From Spirochaetota bacterium (GTDB lineage Bacteria > Spirochaetota > UBA4802 > JAGODF01): a DNA stretch of 64,000 bases. Below the pieces are notes generated by a model. That model was not told the DNA's origin. It did not search any database and worked only from the letters and a program-made list of their open reading frames with translations. Positions 11,207 through 48,418 of the stretch are shown in pieces. Position 1 is the stretch's first letter, and each line of letters begins with the position of its first letter. Location: assembly GCA_029974015.1 (NCBI GenBank), contig JARKUF010000020.1:1-64000 (forward strand). Reading direction: 5' to 3'. A program made the translations under genes and the position numbers.

Positions 11207-13990
11207 CTACCTGAGCCCCTGCTCCACCATCAGTTCAAAGCGGTTTTTCTCAGTGAAGGCTATGGACGTATAGTCCCTATACATTTTCAGGTCGATGTGG
11301 TCCAGGTTCACGTCCGTGGGATGATAGGAGTATCCTTTCACGCTGGAGCTCAAGGTCCTGAGCTCATGGCTTATGGTGTGCAGATTGTCCTTCGTGAACA
11401 CTTCCGAGTAAGCACCGTCTGGGAGGGTAAAACGGTAACCAGTTTCGCCGTTCTCAAGAATATGAAGGGACAGCACAAAGGGGACAATCCCCTTCTCCAT
11501 CCCCATGATGTTCCTGTCCCGGTCGGGATCGAGCTCTGTGATGGAACAGTGGTTGTTCGCTTCGCGCTTCAGGTGGTATATTTCCAGGGGCTTTTTCGAG
11601 GCCGCCAGGGGGGAACGCGGGTTAGACGCTGAAACCCGCTTCACGACATTTTTCCCATAGACATAGAGCCGCGTCAGGTATTCCATGAGGCCTTCGGAAT
11701 TTTTCCGGTAAAACATCAACGCGCCGCGTTCATCGGACACGAAGAAGTAACAGTACTTCGTTTCGCTCTGGAAATAGATCTGGATGCAGTCCTCCCGGTA
11801 GTTCTCTTCCATTATCCGCAGATAGGTGAGTTCCGGGACGGTCCTGTCGATATGCAGAAGGTTTTCCACTCCGGTATTGTACGAAAGGCTGTAAAGGAGC
11901 TTTATCTCGGAATCGAAGGGCCTGCACTGCACCTCTTCACCGTCGGGCCCTTTACGGGATGCGTACATATAGAAGGTGTTCTGCATCATCGTAATGTAGC
12001 GTTTCCTTTTCTGCGGCACCCCTTCAATGAAAAAATCGTACACGTCCCGGGCCACGGCCTGGATGCGGTCAAACTCAGTACTGGCCCTGTACGGATACGA
12101 CGATGTGAGGCGCACGGCGCTCTCGAAGGGCTTCTCCGTGGCCAGGGCCCCGGTAAGAATGCGCCCCAAAAGCGGGGCAATGTCGTTGAAGGACGTAAAG
12201 CTTTCGAATCGCGTCTCCCCCCAACTGTTGTGATACAGGAAGATAATTTCCTCCACGCGCTTGGCGTACTTGGCGTAGGGATTGATGATGATGTAGCTTA
12301 TGGCCGGAAACGGATTATGGAGAAAATAGCCGCTGTGGATATCGAGTTTCTTGATTGAAAAATGCGTGGATATATCATAGACTAAATCGCGGAGAAAATT
12401 TGGGTCCACCTGGTGGAGGCCCGTGGCGATATCCAGGCGCGTGTAGTCCTTCTGGTAGAGCCTGTTTAATCCTATCCAAACCACCATGCCGATGAGGCTC
12501 CGCTCGCTATGGATGACAATCTTCATCGGAGTATCGCGGACAATGGTCCTCTTCGCCAGTATCCAAATCTCCCGGCCATCTTTGGTGCGGTTGAACTCGA
12601 TGGTCAGAAGCTTCTCGGGCGGATAGGTCTTGAAAGCCAGGGAATTGTCAATCTTGTTGTCCGACACCGCGAAGTGGGAGTATATTTTCCTGCTTATCCC
12701 TTTGAGCTCTTCGTCGGTAAAGCGGTGCGCTATCTTCCTCGACTCAATGTTCCCCAGGATGTCCCTGTAACCCTTGAGTATGAATTTTTTCGTATTTGTC
12801 CACAGGGTGTTGACCGCGTTAATGTCCCAGTTTTCGAAGTTGTCCATGCGCTCCACGCCGGAGGCAAGCCAGTTCCACTTCTTCACATAGTCCCGCATCT
12901 TTAAGGTTTTTTCGGAAGCCGTGGCGTCGCCGTTTTTCCCCTCAAGGGCGGAGAGTTTGGGGTCCACTTTCAGGTAAAAACAGGTTTTTAAAATTTCAGT
13001 TGCGTGGAGGTCCTTCACCATTGCGTTGTAATAATCGTACACATCGTTAAACATAATAATATAAGAATCGATGCTGTCGATGTCCAGCTTTCCGGCGTGG
13101 ACGTTTTTCTTTATCATGTTGCTTATGAAGGGATTCGATCCGCCGCCGCGGAGATACCTCTCCAGGAGTCCGAGCTTGATGATAGACTTGAAGGGATTGC
13201 CCAGGGACTTCAGGATCTGGAAGATTGCCCCTCCGATGAACTCCTCGCTGTCAATATGGTAAAGGTTCCCAAGGTCTATAAAATCGTCCATTAGGCCTTC
13301 CTTTTCCGCAAGGGCAAGCCATTTAGCGTAAGCCCCGTCGGTGGTGCCGCCGGGAACGGCCCACCAGAAGGGAATTTTCCCCGCCACCACGATGGAGCTT
13401 CGCAGAAACTCCTCTTTTAGAAGCACCCCGAGGGAGGAGCCGGCAAAACCCTCCTCCTCGTCCTCGTCGAAGATGTTCTGCCGCACCTTGGCGATGTCGT
13501 TAAGGAAAAAGTGGATCTCCATGTTGAACGCTTCATCGGCCCACTGCTCAATGGCATGGCACTTATGGCGGAAATCCGCTATGATTCCGGGGTCGTACCG
13601 GTCCTCATGGACACAGACCCAGAAATCCAGGTCGGACTGGCTGTTGAAAGCGATAGTGCCGCCGCTCCCCATGATGGCGAGCATCTGGACGAAGGGCTCC
13701 CCTCTCCGGGGAATTCCCACATTGGCCTGGGAAAATTTGCTTCTGATAAGGTTGAGCCCCCTTCCGGAAGGCGTATAGTTATGTATACCCGTCACCATTT
13801 TATCCGAGGCGACATACCCTGGAAGGGATGGCTGGTTCGCCGCCAGAAGAAAGGGAAGCGCCTCGAAAAGGTCCACAAGCTTGGGATTGGTGAAAGACGC
13901 GTAAAGCTTTTCCCGGCGCACGCGGTTATAGTCCTCAAACCGCGCCTTGAATGTTTTAATCTGGTTTATAAGCGCTTCTCTTCTATCCAT
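11207..13990 (-). CDS. cyaA: class I adenylate cyclase
   Basis: A 927-residue protein whose first 300 residues align well with the catalytic half of enterobacterial CyaA (848 residues). The nucleotidyltransferase-type motif is MGSGGTIAFNSQSDLDFWV, with the metal-binding pair D120 and D122. KCHAIEQWADEAFNMEIHFF and DLGNLYHIDSEEFIGG follow, as in CyaA. It should make cyclic AMP from ATP. The C-terminal 500 residues are less like the enterobacterial regulatory half. It is 76 bases downstream of an HD-GYP gene on the same strand, which suggests one operon handling two cyclic nucleotides. No cAMP receptor gene lies in the window. Confidence 0.88.
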   Translation of the reverse strand: MDRREALINQIKTFKARFEDYNRVRREKLYASFTNPKLVDLFEALPFLLAANQPSLPGYVASDKMVTGIHNYTPSGRGLNLIRSKFSQANVGIPRRGEPFVQMLAIMGSGGTIAFNSQSDLDFWVCVHEDRYDPGIIADFRHKCHAIEQWADEAFNMEIHFFLNDIAKVRQNIFDEDEEEGFAGSSLGVLLKEEFLRSSIVVAGKIPFWWAVPGGTTDGAYAKWLALAEKEGLMDDFIDLGNLYHIDSEEFIGGAIFQILKSLGNPFKSIIKLGLLERYLRGGGSNPFISNMIKKNVHAGKLDIDSIDSYIIMFNDVYDYYNAMVKDLHATEILKTCFYLKVDPKLSALEGKNGDATASEKTLKMRDYVKKWNWLASGVERMDNFENWDINAVNTLWTNTKKFILKGYRDILGNIESRKIAHRFTDEELKGISRKIYSHFAVSDNKIDNSLAFKTYPPEKLLTIEFNRTKDGREIWILAKRTIVRDTPMKIVIHSERSLIGMVVWIGLNRLYQKDYTRLDIATGLHQVDPNFLRDLVYDISTHFSIKKLDIHSGYFLHNPFPAISYIIINPYAKYAKRVEEIIFLYHNSWGETRFESFTSFNDIAPLLGRILTGALATEKPFESAVRLTSSYPYRASTEFDRIQAVARDVYDFFIEGVPQKRKRYITMMQNTFYMYASRKGPDGEEVQCRPFDSEIKLLYSLSYNTGVENLLHIDRTVPELTYLRIMEENYREDCIQIYFQSETKYCYFFVSDERGALMFYRKNSEGLMEYLTRLYVYGKNVVKRVSASNPRSPLAASKKPLEIYHLKREANNHCSITELDPDRDRNIMGMEKGIVPFVLSLHILENGETGYRFTLPDGAYSEVFTKDNLHTISHELRTLSSSVKGYSYHPTDVNLDHIDLKMYRDYTSIAFTEKNRFELMVEQGLR

Positions 13991-16186: not shown

Positions 16187-19100
16187 TCACTTTTTCCGTT
16201 CCAAACTGAAGCCCACCGGTATCACGCCGGCGAGTCCGGCGTTCCTGTGTACCGAATCGAGGCGGCCGTCCTTCAGGGCCCCCACGAGCTTCACAACCTC
16301 ATCATCCCGGAGGTGGTTGTACACCGCCATCCCCTTCATCCCCGAGTAAAGAGACGATTCCGCAAGCATGTAGATCTGGTTGAGGTCTGAAGACGGCATG
16401 CGGCCCACAAAGATGCCCGGCGCGGATTTTCTTCCCAAAAGTGCCGGGGCACCCAGGGGATGTCCGGAGACACCGGTATCGATTATCAGGGAAAACTTCG
16501 AAAGGTCCGAGCCGGCCTTCTCCTCCACCGGTACTCCCGCGAAAGAGCGGTCGTTCCGCAGGCGGCGGGCCAGGTCTTTGGAGGAAGTGTAGATGCCGGT
16601 GATGCCGGAGCCGGGACCGGCGTAATGCCTTACCCTCTCAAAGGAGGGGACAAAGGTGAAGGGAGGATAATCCTTTAAATCCCGGGGAAGTATCATTTTT
16701 TCCGCGGTTTCGTTCAGAACCACACAGCACTCCTTGGGGCCGCCGGAACAGCGCCCCAGAAGGAATTCCCTGATGGACCCTTCCGCGGTCTTCCCTTCTT
16801 TTACAGTAATTTCCTCGAATCCGAGTTTTTCGCCGAGGCTCCACGCGAAAATCCGCCCGTTGATCTCCTTGAATGAAAAGACCGCCGTCCCCGGTACGGG
16901 TCTCGGGGCGACATCGGGAACAACGAGAAACGAGGCAATGAAGGAATCTTCCTTCTTTAGTTGGGAGGCAAAAGCGCGGAGGGACACAGCCCTTTCTTCG
17001 AGGACGCCGCGGGCGGATTTCACGCTTTCAGAATCTGACGGTTCCCCTGCCTCAAGAAGGGAGGATATTTTTTTTCCCGCTTCCATGACCCGGCGCACTT
17101 CTCCATTGAATTTCAAAAACCGGTCCCGGTCCGCCGCACCGCTGAAATCAGGGGCAGTAAAGGCCATCATCATGGTCCTGTTCACGGCATACCGCTTTTC
17201 GGCGGCGGCGAACGCGCCCCGCCAGTCCCCCCTTTCAATGAGGAAGCGCGAATAATCGTCATACAGGTTCGAGGCCAGATGAGCGCTACCGGCAAAACAC
17301 TGGGGACATTTTTCTACAATAGTGACGGCCTTCTCATAGTATTCCGCGGCGAGGCGGAGGTGCCCCGCTCCCTCCACCGCGGCGCCATGCTCATGGAGAA
17401 ACCCGGCGGTTTTGTAAAACACCACCCACGCCACATCGTCGTACGCGTAATCGACCGCAAAATCTTCCGCGGCGGAAAGGGTTTCGTAAGCGTCATCGAG
17501 GGCCCCCATCCTCATCTGGCACGAGGCGACATTGAGAAGAAGCTTCGCGGTAACTCTCTTGTTCCCGGTCCTGTCGGCATATTCGAGGGCGTCACGGAAC
17601 CGATCAATGGCTCCGGCGTACGTATCATACACTTTTTTATTATACCGATAAACCTCAAAAGCCCGGTCCCCGGGGTCCCTTCCCTGGGTAGGCCCTCCAT
17701 GCTTCAGGAGGCGCTCCGCCTGGAAAAACCTCAGGGTCCCCACGGCGATATCGATATGGTGGTACACATTACGGGCCTCTTCCGCCACTTCGTCCTTCAG
17801 CGCCTCGATCTCTTCGGGCTTTACCTCCCTCTTCCTGGCTTCGGCATCTTTTTTTAGGTCCGCCAGGTCCTGCTCAAATTTGCTTTTTTCATAGCTGTCT
17901 TTATAGTGTGCGATTCTCCGAGTAAGGGAATCCATTTCCTCTTCGGGGTTTTCCAGGGCACCGCTCCTCCTTTCCTGGAGAAGGGCATAGAGATTGGTAT
18001 AGTTTAGAATCGCGTTAAAAACGCCTTCAAGATCGTTCACCCCTGAGTCGGCGGCATAATCCCAGGCCCTCTTAAAATAGCCCAGGGCCTCATTGAACTG
18101 CCCCATCCTATAGTAGCAATATCCAATGTTGTTCAGGGCACGGGTCGTGGCGATCTGATTAATCCGGTTATCGCGCTTCTTCCAAATATTTAGCTTCTTC
18201 TCCAGATATTTGACCGCTCCTCCATAATCGCCTTTGTCGAAGTGGATGTCCTCGAGCATGGAATAATTCAAGACCTTCTTGCTCGACGTGGTGAGTTCTG
18301 TGAAGAGCCTATTGTCCCCGATGACCGCAGTGTCGGGGCCGAGGTCCCAGAAACTCACGGGCCCCATTCCAAAAACCTTGAACCTCAGCTTGTACTTTTT
18401 CTCCTCATCGGAGCTACCCTCAAGCTCTTTGTCGGCCTTTGCGATATAGTCCAGGGCACGGTCCCTTTCGCCAAGTTCGCGATAACAGTGGGCGATTTCT
18501 TGATAGTACCGCGCCTTATCTATGCGGATCCTGTTTTTCCCGGTATAGTCGAGGATCCTGTCGTACCATGTGATTGCCTCGTTCCAGTTACCCTCCATCC
18601 TGTCGAAGAGGGCGAAATACCTGTAGATGGTGTAAATCTGTTCGCGGTATCGGATCGCCCCGTCCTTCTGCCCCAGGGCATCGTAAACCAGGAGGGTTTT
18701 CCGCATCTCTTCCCGGGCATCAGAAAGTCTGTCATCCTGCCAGTAGCAGAATCCCAGATGAAATCGGAACAGCGCCTCCTGTACGGGAGAATCAAAGCCA
18801 CGCTTGTAGTGAAGGGCCTTCTCGTACTGGCGAAGCGCCGCGGGGTAATTGCTCAGGAGGAAGTAGGTATTGGCAAGATTGAGGTGGATATTCCCCTCCC
18901 CTTCCGGGTTTTTGGCTTCATCATTGGCCGCAAGGGCTTTTTCGTAGAGCGGCACGTTCGATTCCCACAGAAGCCTTGGAAAGAATTGCCCGATCAGGTT
19001 TTCATTTTCTCCGCCGAGCTCCCGTCTGCGCATGTCCACATACTGGCTTATCCATCCCCGCAGGACGAACGGCTCCACGTATGTGTCGTCCATGAAGAGC

Positions 19101-21535
19101 GCCCAGTCGATCTGGTCCGCGGAGCTGCGTAAAAATCCGAGGGACTCCTTGAGGCCGCTTCCATCGGGCGTATCGGCGGCGACCCCCAGTTTCGCATACA
19201 CATAAGCCAGGCCATAGAGGTAGGCCTTGTCGTAATTCAGGCGGGCGATGGCGATCCTCTCCTGGTATTTTTTCTCAAGGGCCTCGAGTTTTTTTCTGTT
19301 GGCGCCCGAGTCGGATGATGCGTCAATATACAGCACGTGGGCCCGGGAACCGAAGGAGTTATAGATGTCCTCGAACTTCCGCAGAAGATGCGCGGTGGTT
19401 ACCACATTGATGTACTTGTCGTAGGCGGCCGTTGCCTGGGGTTTTTTCTTCTCCCTTTCGAGGCGCCCGCCAATGTCCTCATAGTGATATATGAGCTTAG
19501 TGAGGATATCCCGGAAGTCGTCCTGTTTCCATCTTAGAAGGTAGTTCTTCACATTATCATAGTAGTACTTCTCCATCCCCTCCCGGTTGCCCTGCCGTTC
19601 CGCGATGGTCCCCAGGAGCATGTTAGACTTGTAAAACAGGAAGTTCGTTTTGCCCACCTCGGCGAGGGTCTTCTCGGCATATTGACGGGCCCGGACGTAA
19701 TTGCCTTCGGCATAGTACGCCTCGCCAAGGACATACTGCATTAAAGCAGAGACTTCCTTGTCCGATTTCTCCCCGGCACGGGAGAGTATCTCCCCGGCGG
19801 ACTTGATCTTTTTAGGGGAACTCTTCTCGTCCCCAAAAATCTTGATGATGTTTTTTGCCGCGTCAATTTTTAAGTACACATTGTTAGAGTTGATGACCCG
19901 GATATAAGACTCCGGCAGTACGGGTCCCACGGCCCTGTAGAGTATCGTGGCGATCTTGAAATCCACGTAATCGGACCTCTTGTACTTTGGAAACTTCTCA
20001 CGCAATTTCTCGTACACTTCCACCGCGGGGCCGGAACGTCCAAGCCGCTTCTCCTCGTCCCCCAGGTCCTCCATCAGGAAGGGAAGATACTCCTGTTTGT
20101 TCCCGTCTTTCTCCATCTGTCCCAGGGCGCCCCTGAGCACGGAATCGCCGGCCCTGCCCGAATAAACATTGTGCAGGTACTCGGCCAGGACGTTCCCATA
20201 ATCGTTTTTGCCCTTCGAAACGGACGACAGAATACCGCGGACCCTTTCCGCGTCGCGGAGATTGCCCGCCTCATAATAGCTACGTCCCGCCTCGGCCAGG
20301 GATTTCCCCACGTAGATGACGGAGCCGCTGTCCTTTTTATCGCCGAAAAAATGGTACACCTGCTCCAGTCCCAGGAGATAGCGTTCCCTGTCGTCGTATT
20401 CCGAGAGGTAGGTCTGTGCAAGGCCATGCTGGTATTCAGCGGTGTTTTTGAGGGGAATGACGCCTTCCTCGGGGATGACATTGATGTTGATATTTTCCCC
20501 GATCTGGTCGGAAAAGATAATTACGTTATGAAACCTTTCGTTTACTTTCCTGAGCGCTCCGGACCATCGCGGCGCGAAAGAAGATTGGGACCTCAGAGTC
20601 AGGGGATACTCCAGATTTGTCACCAGGTCCTTTCGCATAATAACGGAAGCGTCTTTAAGGTTGATTTTCCCGTCCCCATTGGTATCCCTGTCGATCAGGG
20701 TGTACACAATTACATTGTCCTGTCCGGTGAATGAAGGATACAGCTCAATATGCGGGGTGGTAGTGACGCGCGTTTCGCGCCCTGAAAGAATATCGAGGAT
20801 GTAGATGTCGCCATTGCTTCCCTCGTCTCGATAGGATACGAAGACAGCCTTCTTCCCATCAGTGGAAAAACGTGGGTACACTCCCCCCTTCGTTGTAAGC
20901 TGACGGAGGTTCCGTCCGTCGCGGTCTATCATCCAGATATTGTCCGTCCCGTCCCTGTTGGAGGAAAAGACCACCTGCCGGCTGTCAGGAGACCAGGAGG
21001 GTGAGGCGTCGCGGATGATCTTGATGTCCTTCGTTACCGGGTCCTGATACTGGGTGAGGTTTTTCGCCGCCGCATCAAGCGGAGGTATTCCCGCCGGGGA
21101 AGCAACTGCCTTCTCGATGATTTCCCCGGGTGATACGTCCATGACATAGATATCGCCCTCCGGGTCTTCCCGGCGGCTCACAAAGGCCAGGCGCCTCCCG
21201 TCCGGCGATATGGCGGGAGAAGTGTCCTTTGCCGGGTGCCCCGTGATTCGCACTGTGGTTATGTCGGAGAGGGACCTCAGATAGATATCGAAATTGCCCC
21301 GTTCGCGATCCGATGAGTAATACAGATAGAGGCCGTCCTCGGAGAAAACACCGTCGAATTCCGTGGTCTGTTCAATAGTGACGGGAACCACCTTCCCTAC
21401 ATTATAAATGAATTCATTCCTGAGGATTGTCCCATAGCTGAAGAGCACTTCCCTTCTGCTCCTGCTGCCGCATCCGGGGAGAAGGGACACTGCCAGGGCA
21501 AAAAGGAGGAGCCACGCGTATCGTTTAACCGTCAT
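16187..21535 (-). CDS. giant lipoprotein: TolB-like propeller, TPR array, degenerate CHAT-like end
   Basis: A 1,782-residue lipoprotein (lipobox SLLPGC, Cys22). Residues 50-330 form a WD40-like/TolB beta-propeller with repeated blades of the type SPDGRRLAFVS, SPSWSPDSRQVVFSSNRDG and YPRFSTDGKKAVFVS. Residues 400-1400 are a long array of TPR-like helices (for example GNIHLNLANTYFLLSNYPAALRQYEKAL and ALNNIGYCYYRMGQFNEALGYF). The last 350 residues resemble a CHAT/caspase-like fold: a strand LIIDTG followed by GHPLGAPALL, without a clear His-Cys pair, so probably not a protease. The start at 21535 overlaps the preceding stop (ATGA) and has GAGGAG upstream. It ends an envelope operon. Confidence 0.8.
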   Translation of the reverse strand: MTVKRYAWLLLFALAVSLLPGCGSRSRREVLFSYGTILRNEFIYNVGKVVPVTIEQTTEFDGVFSEDGLYLYYSSDRERGNFDIYLRSLSDITTVRITGHPAKDTSPAISPDGRRLAFVSRREDPEGDIYVMDVSPGEIIEKAVASPAGIPPLDAAAKNLTQYQDPVTKDIKIIRDASPSWSPDSRQVVFSSNRDGTDNIWMIDRDGRNLRQLTTKGGVYPRFSTDGKKAVFVSYRDEGSNGDIYILDILSGRETRVTTTPHIELYPSFTGQDNVIVYTLIDRDTNGDGKINLKDASVIMRKDLVTNLEYPLTLRSQSSFAPRWSGALRKVNERFHNVIIFSDQIGENININVIPEEGVIPLKNTAEYQHGLAQTYLSEYDDRERYLLGLEQVYHFFGDKKDSGSVIYVGKSLAEAGRSYYEAGNLRDAERVRGILSSVSKGKNDYGNVLAEYLHNVYSGRAGDSVLRGALGQMEKDGNKQEYLPFLMEDLGDEEKRLGRSGPAVEVYEKLREKFPKYKRSDYVDFKIATILYRAVGPVLPESYIRVINSNNVYLKIDAAKNIIKIFGDEKSSPKKIKSAGEILSRAGEKSDKEVSALMQYVLGEAYYAEGNYVRARQYAEKTLAEVGKTNFLFYKSNMLLGTIAERQGNREGMEKYYYDNVKNYLLRWKQDDFRDILTKLIYHYEDIGGRLEREKKKPQATAAYDKYINVVTTAHLLRKFEDIYNSFGSRAHVLYIDASSDSGANRKKLEALEKKYQERIAIARLNYDKAYLYGLAYVYAKLGVAADTPDGSGLKESLGFLRSSADQIDWALFMDDTYVEPFVLRGWISQYVDMRRRELGGENENLIGQFFPRLLWESNVPLYEKALAANDEAKNPEGEGNIHLNLANTYFLLSNYPAALRQYEKALHYKRGFDSPVQEALFRFHLGFCYWQDDRLSDAREEMRKTLLVYDALGQKDGAIRYREQIYTIYRYFALFDRMEGNWNEAITWYDRILDYTGKNRIRIDKARYYQEIAHCYRELGERDRALDYIAKADKELEGSSDEEKKYKLRFKVFGMGPVSFWDLGPDTAVIGDNRLFTELTTSSKKVLNYSMLEDIHFDKGDYGGAVKYLEKKLNIWKKRDNRINQIATTRALNNIGYCYYRMGQFNEALGYFKRAWDYAADSGVNDLEGVFNAILNYTNLYALLQERRSGALENPEEEMDSLTRRIAHYKDSYEKSKFEQDLADLKKDAEARKREVKPEEIEALKDEVAEEARNVYHHIDIAVGTLRFFQAERLLKHGGPTQGRDPGDRAFEVYRYNKKVYDTYAGAIDRFRDALEYADRTGNKRVTAKLLLNVASCQMRMGALDDAYETLSAAEDFAVDYAYDDVAWVVFYKTAGFLHEHGAAVEGAGHLRLAAEYYEKAVTIVEKCPQCFAGSAHLASNLYDDYSRFLIERGDWRGAFAAAEKRYAVNRTMMMAFTAPDFSGAADRDRFLKFNGEVRRVMEAGKKISSLLEAGEPSDSESVKSARGVLEERAVSLRAFASQLKKEDSFIASFLVVPDVAPRPVPGTAVFSFKEINGRIFAWSLGEKLGFEEITVKEGKTAEGSIREFLLGRCSGGPKECCVVLNETAEKMILPRDLKDYPPFTFVPSFERVRHYAGPGSGITGIYTSSKDLARRLRNDRSFAGVPVEEKAGSDLSKFSLIIDTGVSGHPLGAPALLGRKSAPGIFVGRMPSSDLNQIYMLAESSLYSGMKGMAVYNHLRDDEVVKLVGALKDGRLDSVHRNAGLAGVIPVGFSLERKK

Positions 21536-22119
21536 TTTCTCCTCACCCACGTTCCACCGGCTTCCTGGATCCAGTCGTTCACCTTCGCGAAGGCCCGCTG
21601 TTCCTCCGCAAACTTCCTGCCCAGGGCCGCCGTCTGTTCCGCCGTGGGATTTTCCACTCCGGCCTTCACGAGGGTGCGCCTGAAGATGGTCCGCCTGGCC
21701 CCGTTTTCCTTTTCCATGACAGACAGCAGGGCCTTCTTCTTGCCGGGGTCCCTGTTGTACTCCGAAGTTCCTATGTATCCCAGAAGTCCCGTGTTCGCTT
21801 CACCCACGGCGCCTTCGTCCTTAAATTTTCTCACCTGGTCGCGGGCCTCATCCCTGGTCCTGAAGGCCTGGAATATCTCCTCGTCCCTGGCCCCTCCCTT
21901 TGAAGATATCCCGGTCTTCACCGATGAAACCACCCAGGCCTCCTTCTCAAGTTCGCGGTACTCTCCCACGATCTGGCGTTCGATAACGGTCTTCTGGCCG
22001 GTGAGGTTGATGTCCGGAGGCGCTATCCAGCAGCAGCTTGGGATCTCGCTCGTGGACGAGCACCCTGCCAGGAGGGCAAGGAACATTCCCGGGACGATGA
22101 TAAAGAGCGCTCTGTACAT
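21532..22119 (-). CDS. YnbE-YdbL (DUF1318) fusion-like lipoprotein
   Basis: A 195-residue lipoprotein (LALLAGC, Cys20). Residues 30-60, APPDINLTGQKTVIERQIVG, match the pattern of the tiny Escherichia coli lipoprotein YnbE. The remainder matches DUF1318/YdbL: DEGAVGEANTGLLGYI, RRTIFRRTLVKAG and the closing IQEAGGTWVRR. In E. coli ydbH, ynbE and ydbL form one operon, and YdbH-YnbE bridges the two membranes for lipid homeostasis with YdbL as helper. Here the two small parts appear joined in one chain directly after an AsmA/YdbH-like gene. AGGAGG precedes the ATG, and the stop overlaps the next start. Function is inferred. Confidence 0.75.
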   Translation of the reverse strand: MYRALFIIVPGMFLALLAGCSSTSEIPSCCWIAPPDINLTGQKTVIERQIVGEYRELEKEAWVVSSVKTGISSKGGARDEEIFQAFRTRDEARDQVRKFKDEGAVGEANTGLLGYIGTSEYNRDPGKKKALLSVMEKENGARRTIFRRTLVKAGVENPTAEQTAALGRKFAEEQRAFAKVNDWIQEAGGTWVRRK

Positions 22120-42312: not shown

Positions 42313-43266
42313 TTAGCGCGGCGCCTGACTGAAGCCTTCCGGGAGCTTAAGCCGGGTCCCCGGGATGAGCATCCTGGTGTCCTTCACCACGTCGCGGTTC
42401 AGGTTGTAGAGCTTCTCCCAGTTCCTCCAGTCGCCGGAAAGCCTTTCGCTCAGGTTGATGAAGGTGTCGCGCCACTTCACGGTGTAGCAGTTGTCGCATG
42501 GCCGGACCGCTTTGACGGTGTCCGACGTCGGGGCCTTTATCCCGGCTTCGGGCGCCTTGGCCGCGGGTCCTTCCGCTTGCGTTACCGCCTTGCCCGCGTC
42601 GGCGGCAGGCTCGACAGCCTTCTGCGCCGTCTCGGGCGCCTTCTGCGCGTCTACCAGCGTTTCGCCTGTGTAGGGCGGTATATCCCTCTGCGGCGCCTGG
42701 CATCCCGTGCCTGAGAAGAGTCCCCGTATCCTGGGCCAGAGGAGGATGGCGAGGATTAGGAGTATGATAAGCAGTATCAGCCAGGAGAGCCGCTTCATCG
42801 GTTTGCGGGTTTCGTCGACCGGCCTGTCCGCGATGGTCTCGGGGAGGGCCATGTCCACCACTTCCTGCGCCCACCTGATGAACTTGAGCTCGGCGAGGTC
42901 GCGGACGGTCTTAATGTTGAAGGCCTTTTTCAGGAGCTGGGCGTCCTTCTTGCTCACACCCTGGATCGCGTCGACTGGCGCCTTGGCCAGGGCGCCGGCT
43001 TTCTTCTTCTCGTATTTCTTGTCGAGCTTGTCCTTGAACGCCGCCATGTTCGCCGAGGGATCGCTGTCGGCGAGCTCGCAGATTTCCCGCGCCCATTTCC
43101 CGTATTTCAGATTGGCCAGGTCGGCCACGGTCTTGATGTAGAACGCCTTGTAGAGGAGTTCCCCATCATCCTCGCTCACCCCCTGGAGCGCGTGTACCGG
43201 CGCGGCGGCCAGGTCGGTGAAGCTCATCTGCTCGTACTTTTTATCGAATCTGTTCTTGATGTCCAT
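42313..43266 (-). CDS. tandem HhH-like (DUF4332) domains, membrane helix and LysM domain
   Basis: A 317-residue protein with an unusual layout. Two similar helix-hairpin-helix-like units lie at 15-66 and 92-140 (ALQGVSEDDGELLYKAF and AIQGVSKKDAQLLKKAF, each followed by IKTVADLANLK or IKTVRDLAELK). A membrane helix is at 161-178, an Ala/Pro/Lys-rich linker at 190-250, and a LysM peptidoglycan-binding domain at 261-308 (YTVKWRDTFINLSERLSG to MLIPGTRLKLP). The predicted arrangement is cytoplasmic HhH pair, inner membrane helix, periplasmic LysM. A gene for a small zinc ribbon lies 25 bases upstream. GGAGGT precedes the ATG. Confidence 0.8.
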   Translation of the reverse strand: MDIKNRFDKKYEQMSFTDLAAAPVHALQGVSEDDGELLYKAFYIKTVADLANLKYGKWAREICELADSDPSANMAAFKDKLDKKYEKKKAGALAKAPVDAIQGVSKKDAQLLKKAFNIKTVRDLAELKFIRWAQEVVDMALPETIADRPVDETRKPMKRLSWLILLIILLILAILLWPRIRGLFSGTGCQAPQRDIPPYTGETLVDAQKAPETAQKAVEPAADAGKAVTQAEGPAAKAPEAGIKAPTSDTVKAVRPCDNCYTVKWRDTFINLSERLSGDWRNWEKLYNLNRDVVKDTRMLIPGTRLKLPEGFSQAPR

Positions 43267-43709: not shown

Positions 43710-45458
43710 ATGAAGAAAGACATCGATACCAGAACGCTCATCCGAATCGACGAGCTTGACAATCCTTACCTGCGCCATTTTGTTCGAAAGCACAACCTCG
43801 ACGACAGGGAAGCCCTTGCCCTTGGCGTGCTGATGGAGCAGACAAACCAGATGCAGTTGGCCATAAAAACGAGTTATCCTATACTTGCCCGCGATATCGG
43901 CGTATCCACTAACGAAGCTTACCGCCTTGTACAGGCCCTGCACCGGCACCGTATTCTCGAATCTACCCCCGACGGCGAACTGATCAGAATTGCCTTTTAC
44001 CCCCTTAAAGAAACAGTGGATGAAATACGTCTGTCCTATAAAAACGCCCGCAGGCTCGATATTATAGAAAGCTACCTGAACTCAATAAAGGGAAAGGATT
44101 ATCTGGCCAAAAACGACCTTTTCGACGAAGTCTATCCCATAATAGGGGCCCTCATCACAAAAAAAATGGCGGAAGCGCTCCGCTCCCTTGCCCAATACAT
44201 AGACAGGAGGCTGGAATCGGCAACCAGTCTGCGCCTGTGGCGCTATCGAGTTCGTTCGTGGATAAGCGGCGTACCGGCCGGTGAACTGATGCTCAGGGAC
44301 AGCCTCCCCTTCATCGTCGAAGAACTTTTTATTATCGAAAACAAGAGCGGTCTCCTCCTGGCCCATCACTCTCGCAAGGCGGAGGGCGAGGTCGACCGCG
44401 ACCTCGTAAGCGGCATGTTGACCGCCATCAAGGACTTCATCAAGACCTCGTTCAAAGAGAAGCGTGACGAAGAGGTGGGCGAGATATCCTATGGCGATGC
44501 CCGCATCCTGATCCGCTCCGAGCCGCATTTTTACGCGGCATTCGTGGTTAACGGAAACCCGGATATCGAGTTTAACCTCGAAATGGGACGCTTCACCGTG
44601 GAGCTCCACCGCGCCAACCGTCAGCTTTTGCGCTCGTTTAAAGGCGACATGAAGTCTCTCGGACCTCTGCAACCCCCCGTAAGAGAGTTCGTCCAACGCT
44701 ACAGTACGCTCCCAACCGAAGAAAAGGCCTCCAAATCCCCTATGAAAAGGCTGAAATTCGCCGGGGCAATATTGGGGATGATATGCCTCTATCTTGCGGG
44801 AACAGCCGTGTATCATGCCTGGAACGACTCCCGCCTGGAGAAAGCTGTAATGGACCGGCTGGCCGGAAAAATGCCGGCGCACATGTACGACATCAGCATT
44901 GATGTCGGGCGCGGCACAGCAAAAGCCAGGGGCATAGCCTCATCCGAAGAAATAATCCGGCGCCTCGGCGAAGTGATCGCATCCACTCCGGGGATTAAAG
45001 GCGTTGACAACCGTGTCCTGGTCGCGGACATAGAGCGGATAAGCAAATACCGGGAAGAGATGAACACCATCAGGAAGCGCATGGACGCGATCTTGTTGGC
45101 CCAGACCAGGGAGGAACTCGAAAAGATCGTCATACGCTTTCCCATCAACGTGGCGCAAATTGGAAAAGAGCAGGACTTCCTGATAAAGCGCATCTATGAA
45201 ATAGTTAAACACCATCCTGGTGCGCACCTGGATGTCGTGGCCTTCGCTGACAAAACAGGAAGTTACGAAATCAACAAGTCGCTTGCCGAAAGGAGGGTCG
45301 CGGCCGTACGCGCCGGCCTTATTGCGAGGGGAATATCCCCATCGAGAATAACCCCCTTCCCCTTCGATCAGGCTTTGATAGAATCGGACCCTCGTATGGC
45401 GGCGCACCGCGACGAGAGAGGCATAATAATATTCGCTCGAATGAAGGAGGAAAAATAA
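43710..45458 (+). CDS. HTH / longin-like / membrane / BON / OmpA adaptor protein
   Basis: A 582-residue mosaic. Residues 45-90 form a helix-turn-helix (YPILARDIGVSTNEAYRLVQAL). Residues 198-312 show strand-strand-helix-three strands-helix (ELFIIENKSGLLLAHHS, DRDLVSGMLTAIKDFIKTSF, ARILIRSEPHFYAAFVVNG), which fits a longin or roadblock-like fold, the kind that docks small GTPases. A membrane helix lies at 347-366, a BON-like domain at about 372-438 and an OmpA C-terminal-like peptidoglycan domain at 475-578 (HLDVVAFADKTGSYEINKSLAERRVAAVRAGL). It would tie the cell wall outside to a GTPase inside. The Ras-like GTPase gene follows 44 bases later. Domain calls for the middle part are inferred. Confidence 0.75.
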   Translation: MKKDIDTRTLIRIDELDNPYLRHFVRKHNLDDREALALGVLMEQTNQMQLAIKTSYPILARDIGVSTNEAYRLVQALHRHRILESTPDGELIRIAFYPLKETVDEIRLSYKNARRLDIIESYLNSIKGKDYLAKNDLFDEVYPIIGALITKKMAEALRSLAQYIDRRLESATSLRLWRYRVRSWISGVPAGELMLRDSLPFIVEELFIIENKSGLLLAHHSRKAEGEVDRDLVSGMLTAIKDFIKTSFKEKRDEEVGEISYGDARILIRSEPHFYAAFVVNGNPDIEFNLEMGRFTVELHRANRQLLRSFKGDMKSLGPLQPPVREFVQRYSTLPTEEKASKSPMKRLKFAGAILGMICLYLAGTAVYHAWNDSRLEKAVMDRLAGKMPAHMYDISIDVGRGTAKARGIASSEEIIRRLGEVIASTPGIKGVDNRVLVADIERISKYREEMNTIRKRMDAILLAQTREELEKIVIRFPINVAQIGKEQDFLIKRIYEIVKHHPGAHLDVVAFADKTGSYEINKSLAERRVAAVRAGLIARGISPSRITPFPFDQALIESDPRMAAHRDERGIIIFARMKEEK

Positions 45459-45502
45459 ATCATGTTCGCATACCCCCGGTTTCGGCATAAAACGGCATCT
45501 CT

Positions 45503-46006
45503 ATGATAATTCAAAAGAAAATATGCCTTCTGGGCGATTTTGCCGTAGGGAAGACGAGCCTTATTCGAAGGTTTGTGCACAATGAATTCAGCGAAAACTA
45601 TCTCACCACAATTGGCGTCCACATCAGCAAAAAGGAGATTTCCCTGGAAAGCGGCAGTCTTGTGCTGATAATCTGGGACCTCGCGGGCAATGACGGCTTT
45701 CAAAGGACCGCAGCCTCCTATATGGTAGGCGCCGCGGGGGCCATCTTTGTGGGCGACCTCAGCCGCTCCGAAACCATTAATAGCCTCCCTTCGCAGATTA
45801 GCTCTTTTAAAAGCGCCAACCCCGATGCTTCATTTGTTGTCGCTCTCAACAAAACAGACCTGATGCCTCATCCGGTGGACGCAAACGAAATAGCAAGCAA
45901 AGCCGGCCTTCCCGACGGCCTGTCGATTTTTCTGACGAGCTGTAAAATAGGCGAAAATGTGGAAGACGTTTTTTCCTCTCTCGCCGGCCTTATAATGGAA
46001 CGGTAA
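45503..46006 (+). CDS. Ras-like small GTPase with an altered switch II
   Basis: A 167-residue single-domain GTPase of the Rab/Ras-like bacterial group. G1 is GDFAVGKTS (11-19), G2 the threonine in YLTTIGV, G3 is WDLAGND (58-64), G4 is NKTD (116-119) and G5 is TSCK (145-148). In the usual DxAGQ(E/D) motif the catalytic glutamine is replaced by asparagine (N63), which predicts slow intrinsic hydrolysis and dependence on a partner. Bacterial relatives such as MglA set polarity together with longin/roadblock proteins; here the upstream gene encodes a longin-like region. A SpoIIE phosphatase gene follows 49 bases later. Confidence 0.88.
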   Translation: MIIQKKICLLGDFAVGKTSLIRRFVHNEFSENYLTTIGVHISKKEISLESGSLVLIIWDLAGNDGFQRTAASYMVGAAGAIFVGDLSRSETINSLPSQISSFKSANPDASFVVALNKTDLMPHPVDANEIASKAGLPDGLSIFLTSCKIGENVEDVFSSLAGLIMER

Positions 46007-46055
46007 TGGGCAGGCCGATCGTCATTTACGCCTTCCGGCGGTCGGCGGCCCTGAT

Positions 46056-47321
46056 ATGATGCTTCCGGGCCCGGAAACCCTCATAAGGCTCTGCGACCGC
46101 TATGGGGTTTATTTTGTTTATTTTAATGACAGCCTTACACTCGAAGGCCGCGCCGAAAACCTTTCTAAACTCCTGGACAGGGATATTTCCGAAGGGGCGC
46201 GTCTTCTGGAAGTCTTTCCTGAACTCGTCGGCCGTGAAAATGTGCTGGATGATATAATCGACGGACGGGGCGAGTTATCAATTTTTAATATCATCGCCGC
46301 TAACGGGGCGGTCTATTACAACCTGCTCGTAATTCCCGATCCCTCCAGGCAGCGAAGCGCCCTCCTGATTATTCATGACGTAACGGCCGAACTAAAGGCC
46401 AGGCAGCTTCTGCAGCAAAGCAGAAACGAGGTGTCGCTACTCAGCGAAACGCTGCGCCACAGGGACGACAACCTCAAAGCGCTCAATGAGACGACCCTCC
46501 TTTATATCAACAAACTGCATGCCACGGAAGAATCATTGAAGAAAAGCCGGGAAGAGTTAAGGCAGAGCAACGAGAGGATGTCCCGCGAGCTCCTCATGGC
46601 GGAAAAAGTGCAACGCCAGCTCGTGGAATTTGATCCGCCCGATGTGCCATGGCTACGCACTGAGTACACATATCGGCCTCTCGAGGAGGTGGGAGGGGAT
46701 TTTATGGGGCTTATGAAAAGGCCGGGGGAAGAGTTCGCGGTTTTTATCGGCGATGTGACCGGCCATGGCGTCGCAGCGGCGCTTTTTATTGCCCTGCTGA
46801 AATCCACCTTCCGACAGGTCTTCATGAAGCACGGTGGAACGCCGGACGTGATGCTCGAAAAGATCAACAGCATGCTGCTGAACAATCTTAACGGCAATTT
46901 TGTCACATGCGTTTACGGACTGCTTTCGAAGAAGGACGATGGGAGCGCCGACTTTGTGTTCGCGTCCGGAGGCCATACCGAGCCGGTGATTGTCCGAGCG
47001 AATGGCCCTGTTGAGTTTTTGCAATCCAGAGGCACAATGCTGGGCTACATGTCTCCGATGGGGAGCAGTTTGGAAACAGCAAATCTAAGGCCCGGCGACA
47101 GATTGTTCCTCTATACCGACGGCCTTCCGGAAACAGAAAACCCCCGGGGTAAAATTATCGGTTTCGAGGAGGGACTCGAGGAGTTGTTCGAGTTTTCCAG
47201 GTCGGACACGCTGAAAGAGGCGCACGGCAGGATCATAGAATACTGCGACCGTTTTCGAGAAGGCGAGCCACTGCACGACGATTTGACCATCCTTTCATTC
47301 GAAATAGTCAATACCCCCTAA
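46056..47321 (+). CDS. PAS-coiled coil-SpoIIE (PP2C) phosphatase
   Basis: A 421-residue protein. Residues 10-112 are a PAS-like sensor (LEVFPELVGRENVLDDIIDG, ALLIIHDVTAEL), 113-190 a coiled coil, and 195-418 a SpoIIE-type PP2C phosphatase with GGDFMGL (213-219), IGDVTGHGVAAALF (D233) and LFLYTDGLPETENPRG, plus the closing LHDDLTILSFE. All metal-binding aspartates are present. It should dephosphorylate a STAS-type partner; a STAS gene lies at 15653. The sensor and coiled coil are clearly homologous to the N-terminus of the neighbouring convergent HD-GYP protein, so both probably respond to the same upstream partner, perhaps the GTPase. Confidence 0.9.
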   Translation: MMLPGPETLIRLCDRYGVYFVYFNDSLTLEGRAENLSKLLDRDISEGARLLEVFPELVGRENVLDDIIDGRGELSIFNIIAANGAVYYNLLVIPDPSRQRSALLIIHDVTAELKARQLLQQSRNEVSLLSETLRHRDDNLKALNETTLLYINKLHATEESLKKSREELRQSNERMSRELLMAEKVQRQLVEFDPPDVPWLRTEYTYRPLEEVGGDFMGLMKRPGEEFAVFIGDVTGHGVAAALFIALLKSTFRQVFMKHGGTPDVMLEKINSMLLNNLNGNFVTCVYGLLSKKDDGSADFVFASGGHTEPVIVRANGPVEFLQSRGTMLGYMSPMGSSLETANLRPGDRLFLYTDGLPETENPRGKIIGFEEGLEELFEFSRSDTLKEAHGRIIEYCDRFREGEPLHDDLTILSFEIVNTP

Positions 47322-48418
47322 GCATTCCACTTAAACCCCTTTTTTCTAAAAAGGCTGATACAGGTTTTTACCACGTTCTCGCCATAAAGTATTCCGGAGT
47401 TCATTTCTATTTCCTCCAGCGCGCTTTCGATGCTGGAAGAAAAACGGTACGGGCGATAAGTAGCCATTGCCTCGACCACATCCGCCACTGTTACGATCTT
47501 CGATTCAAGCAGAATCTCTTCCCCCTTCAGCCCGAAGGGATATCCCGATCCGTCGCATTTTTCATGGTGCTGAAGGATGATTGTCGCAACCGGCCAGGGG
47601 AACTCGATGTCCCGAAGGATATCAAATCCGACGCTCGAGTGTGTCTTTATGACAGTGAATTCTGCCTCTGAAAGGCCGAGTGGTTTGGTCAGGAATTCGC
47701 TGGGAACGTAAATCTTTCCAATATCGTGGAGGCGGCTGGCGACACTAATGCCTTCGATGGCATGTTCGGAAAGGCCAAGCTCTCGGCCTATGGCCTCGGC
47801 CAGCAAAGCCACCCTCTGCTGGTGGCCGGCCGTGTAGGGGTCCCGCTTTTCCAGCGCGGACATGAGGGAGTTAACGGTTTGGCTGAACAGCCTTCGGGAA
47901 AATTCTATGCTTTCCTTTAATTCGCGGGTACGGTTGTCCACGGCCTTTTCGAGGCCCTTGTTCAGCTCTCTAAGCTCTTTCTGGCTTTTCATGAGCTGGA
48001 TGTTTTTTTCGGAAAGGTCCTGCTGCAGCAAATGTATCTCGTTGCGCCGTTGCTGAAGGGATTGCCGTATGAGGGTTTCGCCGGTTACGTCCCTTATTAC
48101 AAGGGCGGCAGTGTCGTCTCCTCTATCGTCGTTGATGATAAACAGGTCGAAAAAAACCTCTGCCGGGAGTGGGCCGTCAACGATCCTGTTAATTCGTTTG
48201 ATCGAGGTTTCGCGGGACCCACCGTCTATTATTGTGTTGATAATCCGTTCGATTCCAACTATCTCCGGGAGGACGTCGGACGATTTGGCGGTATTGATAT
48301 CGGCGTCGATACCAAGAAATTTTTGGAGCGAAGATCCGTAGAAATGAATGACGAAGTCGCGGCCTATGCGCGCCTGATGGATGCCGAACCTTTGTGATAT
48401 AAGTGAGCCTTCCGACAT
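47318..48418 (-). CDS. PAS-coiled coil-HD-GYP phosphodiesterase
   Basis: A 366-residue protein. Residues 20-112 match the sensor of the facing phosphatase (DVLPEIVGIERIINTIIDGG, ALVIRDVTGETLIRQSLQQRRNEI). A coiled coil runs 113-185, and the HD-GYP domain shows KRDPYTAGHQQRVALL, RLHDIGKIYVPSE (H231, D232), IKTHSSVGFDIL, HHEKCDGSGYPFGLKGE (GYP 293-295) and IVTVADVVEAMATYRPYR. It is complete, so cyclic di-GMP breakdown is expected. Its stop overlaps the phosphatase stop by four bases on the opposite strand (CTAA), so the two genes converge with no gap. Confidence 0.92.
   Translation of the reverse strand: MSEGSLISQRFGIHQARIGRDFVIHFYGSSLQKFLGIDADINTAKSSDVLPEIVGIERIINTIIDGGSRETSIKRINRIVDGPLPAEVFFDLFIINDDRGDDTAALVIRDVTGETLIRQSLQQRRNEIHLLQQDLSEKNIQLMKSQKELRELNKGLEKAVDNRTRELKESIEFSRRLFSQTVNSLMSALEKRDPYTAGHQQRVALLAEAIGRELGLSEHAIEGISVASRLHDIGKIYVPSEFLTKPLGLSEAEFTVIKTHSSVGFDILRDIEFPWPVATIILQHHEKCDGSGYPFGLKGEEILLESKIVTVADVVEAMATYRPYRFSSSIESALEEIEMNSGILYGENVVKTCISLFRKKGFKWNA

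Follow-up and report, generated by a model that had tools for sequence, protein, structure and literature searches.

A candidate Group 1 Rup-type small-GTPase module with a predicted roadblock/longin platform in a Spirochaetota genome

The Rup GTPases and their Group 1 gene neighbourhoods were defined by Wuichet & Søgaard-Andersen in 2014 (PMC4316618). A Group 1 neighbourhood comprises a Rab-like GTPase without the G3 glutamine, a membrane protein in which a conserved unknown domain is often followed by a transmembrane (TM) segment and an OmpA domain, a coiled-coil protein, and an output protein, typically a DGC/PDE or an HK, that bears an invariant glutamine in its N-terminus (PMC4316618). 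The GTPases closely resemble the Rab/Ran/Ras/Rho group of eukaryotes; the domain of the membrane protein and the N-terminal region of the output were left without assignment, supply of the glutamine in trans was already a speculation, and it was stated that no Rup member had by then been studied experimentally (PMC4316618). A Mesorhizobium loti member is named in that work, and Spirochaetota are not in its taxon list (PMC4316618). Our literature search, with most subscription journals outside its reach, found no later experimental study of Rup GTPases, PMC7159879 being unrelated to them.

A sequence-only reading of the window (the whole 64,000-nucleotide stretch of Spirochaetota DNA analysed here) had picked out a four-gene signalling cassette around a Ras-like GTPase, and the list of open reading frames bears out all its coordinates, its gaps and the convergent fourth gene (Table 1); the SpoIIE and HD-GYP genes overlap by 4 bp at their convergent ends. 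Its domain calls were likewise upheld for Ras, SpoIIE, HD and OmpA, all strong in Pfam, and for the single membrane helix. Its suggestion that no described system has this set of genes fails: the core set had been published in 2014 as the neighbourhood of Group 1 Rup GTPases (PMC4316618), and the module is therefore not undescribed. Elsewhere on the reverse strand, the window encodes a class-I (CyaA-type) adenylate cyclase with its N-terminal domain (11207-13990; Pfam 5e-56 and 2e-45), a 1787-aa protein with a PD40 propeller and many TPR repeats (16187-21550) and, divergent from the cassette, a protein in which repeats resembling helix-hairpin-helix/DUF4332 are combined with a membrane helix and a LysM-like end (weak scores; 42313-43266).

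Table 1. Genes of the cassette and features of their products (positions in the window)
Feature	Position	Strand	Product or residues	Remarks and basis
Adaptor gene	43710..45458	+	582 aa	wHTH, long helix, roadblock/longin, TM, BON, OmpA
Winged-helix-like N-terminal domain	43710..44063	+	adaptor aa 1-118	conservation, weak Pfam HTH
Long helix leading into roadblock/longin domain	44109..44267	+	adaptor aa 134-186	AF2
Predicted roadblock/longin domain	44313..44615	+	adaptor aa 202-302	bb-a-bbb-a after short helix; AF2, Foldseek
Single membrane helix	44757..44813	+	adaptor aa ~350-368	
BON domain	44823..45026	+	adaptor aa 372-439	Pfam
OmpA peptidoglycan-binding domain	45138..45353	+	adaptor aa 477-548	Pfam
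GTPase gene	45503..46006	+	167 aa	44 bp gap after adaptor
Output 1 gene	46056..47321	+	421 aa	PAS, coiled coil, SpoIIE/PP2C phosphatase; 49 bp gap after GTPase
Invariant Gln121 codon	46416..46418	+	PAS signalling helix, output 1	alignment of 83 outputs
Output 2 gene	47318..48418	-	366 aa	PAS, coiled coil, HD-GYP phosphodiesterase; convergent
Invariant Gln123 codon	48050..48052	-	PAS signalling helix, output 2	alignment of outputs, AF2

Adaptor architecture and GTPase active site

An AF2 model of adaptor residues 120-330, built from 55 sequences, has a mean pLDDT of 83, with values of ~90-97 over the strands and the last helices and 70-81 around the middle helix. The predicted core runs in the order long helix, short helix, two strands, helix, three strands and helix, which contains the a-bb-a-bbb-a topology of the roadblock/longin fold; residues ~200-302 thus adopt in the model the fold that had been supposed for the middle of the adaptor and whose absence would have spoken against the earlier interpretation. 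The best PDB fold matches found by Foldseek are the roadblock domains of RagA/RagC, Ragulator subunits, the sigma/zeta chains of AP-2 and COPI, Ykt6, Mon1-Ccz1, MglB and an Asgard roadblock protein, and the great majority of the top matches belong to roadblock, longin, adaptor-sigma or TRAPP chains. Their E-values are modest, 1.8e-4 for the best and weaker for the others, and the top matches agree on the superfamily; a sequence profile of the core had no match among PDB chains. The roadblock/longin assignment is confirmed at the level of the predicted fold. Adaptor residues 229-246 make up a conserved helix. There is no Robl_LC7 match in the window genome, making the adaptor the obvious roadblock partner of the GTPase.

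The flanking domains of the adaptor differ in how clearly they are recognised. The OmpA domain scores E=1.2e-7, and the BON match (6.4e-5) is under the Pfam cut-off in the window protein and clear in relatives, being found in 12 of 63 related adaptors with a best E of 5e-14; the extracytoplasmic part carries OmpA in 22 of these 63 and a bacterial SH3 domain in 20. The HTH proposed for the N-terminus is similarly weak in the window protein (HTH_IclR, 0.012), and what supports a domain there is conservation of the N-terminal ~118 residues across all full-length adaptors of this spirochaete order. This conservation would suit a different role, in which the adaptor would act chiefly as a transcription regulator tethered to the membrane, with a winged helix, a TM segment and a periplasmic sensor, comparable to ToxR and CadC, and the GTPase would only modulate it. 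We consider this quite unlikely: besides the weak HTH scores, no winged-helix-like domain was found among adaptors outside the order, so that the domain is an add-on.

The GTPase is a single-domain member of the Ras superfamily with Rab/Ras-like G motifs (Pfam Ras, 2.8e-27), with Rab14 and Sec4 as its closest relatives in the PDB. It has Asn63 at the position of Ras Gln61 and Phe13 at that of Gly12. Among 90 GTPases, none has Gln at the G3 position equivalent to Gln61, and 85 have Phe at the Gly12 position. A change at either site impairs hydrolysis in eukaryotic Ras, and a GTPase with Phe at the latter and no catalytic Gln is therefore expected to hydrolyze GTP poorly alone.

Conservation of the gene set

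Of 59 related genomes, counting that of the window, 15 have both the adaptor core and the GTPase and the rest have neither, and the PAS-type outputs are found in these 15 genomes, in two further genomes of the same order with orphan PAS-HD-GYP genes, and as one weak match. Three other Spirochaetota genomes (G006, G016 and G027) share the order of all four genes, with the HD-GYP gene convergent, so the co-occurrence in relatives whose absence would have spoken against the earlier interpretation is borne out. In the other related genomes the core usually reads adaptor-GTPase-PAS-HD-GYP, a PAS-SpoIIE gene being optional, and adaptor, GTPase and HD-GYP genes are co-directional in some of them. That the four genes are chance neighbours or belong to separate systems might be argued from the opposite strand of the HD-GYP gene in the window; this is very improbable given the homologous PAS module with its invariant Gln in both outputs, and chance neighbourhood is refuted by the conservation of gene set and order. 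The two orphan PAS-HD-GYP genes (L093:5306-6412 in G020; L094:7470-8588 in G011) have the invariant Gln motif, and neither adaptor nor GTPase was detected in these two genomes of the window's order, which counts against the proposed module.

The publicly named relatives are uncultured Spirochaetota (L098, ADurb.BinA120; L099, UBA5368; L100; L101; L102). In a genome of the same genus, two Rup-type GTPase genes flank a long multi-PAS SpoIIE output (L080:9675-13999, G001:C250). In G046, from a more remote member of the phylum, the system is split over two contigs (L090:6337-9587 and L092:8224-9959), one holding a PAS kinase with an adaptor lacking the wHTH and the other a GTPase with an adenylate cyclase containing a QQRASE motif.

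Relatives were also found well beyond the phylum. In a tblastn search of plasmids with the window GTPase, matches were obtained in Nostoc, Mesorhizobium and Rhizobium, where an OmpA-type protein encoded directly upstream has a core homologous to window adaptor residues ~125-329 (E 8e-19 to 2e-24), the gene preceding it has a coiled-coil-type composition, and the gene after the GTPase encodes, in Nostoc, a hybrid histidine kinase and, in the rhizobia, an adenylate cyclase, each carrying the N-terminal module seen in the window outputs. The PAS region alone as query had no match in plasmids, and a single-protein scan of the genome contigs gave none either. A broad alignment of 16 rows proved too divergent for searching; a 7-row alignment of the adaptor core retrieved 271 relatives in GTDB genomes, of which the best 80 are mostly from Chloroflexota and also include KSB1, Calditrichota, Acidobacteriota, Gemmatimonadota, Gammaproteobacteria and Desulfosarcina. 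In 51 loci, drawn from many phyla and with enough flanking sequence, a GTPase lies within 3 kb of the adaptor in 49, a PAS output within 4 kb in 45, and a coiled-coil-like gene upstream in 41 by a crude composition test; the six full loci without a recognised PAS output count against the module as proposed. All 73 adaptor-GTPase pairs scored are co-directional, and the divergence of the two proteins correlates (Spearman 0.79 over the 73 pairs, species relatedness not being controlled).

Glutamine-bearing PAS modules and the proposed circuit

Both outputs retain intact motifs of their enzyme domains: output 1 matches SpoIIE at 7e-40 and has the GGDF, GDVTGHG and DDLTI motifs, and output 2 matches HD_5 at 1.8e-29 and has the HDIGK and GYP motifs. 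Their N-terminal regions, which had been called PAS domains, have no Pfam match, and the call stands on predicted fold and mutual homology. AF2 models residues 1-157 of output 2 as a PAS domain from which a long helix extends (pLDDT 95), with the N-terminal PAS of Rv1364c as the closest fold in Foldseek, and the corresponding regions of the SpoIIE and HD-GYP proteins are homologous (34% identity, E=8e-18), which supports a link between the two outputs. A Gln on the helix, ~13 residues beyond the first residue of the PAS Asp-x-Thr motif, is present in every one of 83 outputs, including both window proteins (Table 1), and we infer it to be the Gln of the 2014 logo. The enzyme parts of these 83 outputs are kinases (45), HD domains (14), cyclases (13), sigma-54 activators (5), SpoIIE phosphatases (5) and GGDEF/EAL (1). 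The window genome has 25 STAS and 21 GGDEF matches, and both window outputs thus have possible targets.

We regard it as probable, if far from certain, that the cassette works as a Group 1 Rup-type small-GTPase module with an adaptor platform, a GTPase and two switched outputs; the basis is the gene set, predicted folds, conservation, co-occurrence, the absence of Gln61 and the invariance of the output Gln. It is proposed that the adaptor crosses the inner membrane and grips the peptidoglycan via its OmpA (and BON) domain, and that its cytoplasmic long helix bears the roadblock/longin domain as a docking and regulatory platform, as a GEF, a GAP or a scaffold, for the GTPase. The GTP-bound GTPase would bind the PAS/helix module common to both outputs and thereby switch the SpoIIE-type phosphatase, acting in partner switching, and the HD-GYP phosphodiesterase, acting in cyclic di-GMP breakdown. 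The invariant Gln might act in trans to complete the active site of the GTPase, in which case each output would end its own signal; the residue could also just serve the coiled coil, which counts against the proposal. The favoured direction would lead from envelope state through adaptor and GTPase to the two outputs.

The signal might instead run the other way, with the PAS proteins as sensors and the GTPase, together with the adaptor, as the output. This is a real rival, if an unlikely one: PAS domains usually sense ligands, and there is a precedent in the conservons, for which such a role has been proposed for actinobacterial histidine kinases (PMC4316618; PMC13343842). Against it, the same PAS module recurs with six or more kinds of catalytic or regulatory effector domain, as expected of interchangeable outputs behind a fixed input, and the wall-binding domain is on the adaptor. 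For the envelope-to-output circuit, the roadblock/longin fold and the PAS helix with its invariant Gln provide concrete, testable interfaces.

Eukaryotic membrane traffic and the control of mTORC1 depend centrally on the pairing of Rab-like GTPases with roadblock/longin platforms, and these two assignments suggest that the pairing is also used at the bacterial envelope, where in this locus it would feed partner switching and cyclic di-GMP. More tentatively, and as a possibility we would not yet call probable, Rup could be a widespread bacterial counterpart of Rab/Rag, in which a roadblock/longin platform anchored in the wall would load a Rab-like GTPase, interchangeable PAS effectors would take up the signal and terminate it by supplying the absent catalytic Gln from their signalling helix, and the platform has gained a winged helix in this order.

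Relation to known systems

The MglA-MglB pair of Myxococcus and Thermus also combines a small Ras-like GTPase with a roadblock-fold partner. However, MglB is a free small Robl_LC7 protein, whereas the window domain sits in a wall-anchored membrane protein and has no Robl_LC7 match, and MglA has an intrinsic catalytic Gln that the Rab-like window GTPase is missing. Membership was rejected on two grounds, the lack of a Robl_LC7 match in the genome and Asn63 in place of the G3 Gln. The actinobacterial conservons (AGPS, CvnA-D) similarly are operons of a Ras-like GTPase, a roadblock protein and a signalling enzyme; the window cassette differs in having no CvnA kinase or CvnC, a roadblock domain fused to TM-OmpA and a different GTPase family, and was excluded from this class as its cluster contains no kinase or CvnB-type gene. 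In the eukaryotic Ragulator/Rag, TRAPP and Mon1-Ccz1 systems, roadblock/longin proteins are platforms or exchange factors for small GTPases, the role proposed here for the adaptor, which they resemble at the fold level only.

The closest described system is Group 1 Rup, an assignment made by gene set and by homology to loci of related genera. Shared with it are a Rab/Ras-like GTPase without the G3 Gln, a neighbouring protein composed of a conserved domain, a TM segment and OmpA, and an output enzyme with an invariant N-terminal Gln; of the Group 1 features examined, only the cytoplasmic coiled-coil neighbour is lacking. Because Group 1 Rup has a coiled-coil gene, while the window and its order-level relatives have none beside the cassette, we file the cassette as a Group 1 Rup variant rather than a strict member. 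The window adaptor differs further by an added N-terminal wHTH and BON domain, and the locus by its two outputs, SpoIIE and HD-GYP, and its Spirochaetota host. What appears to be new is the predicted roadblock/longin identity of the formerly unknown domain and the predicted PAS-helix location of the invariant glutamine, together with a Spirochaetota branch that has no coiled-coil gene and is marked by a clade-specific winged helix and paired SpoIIE and HD-GYP outputs.
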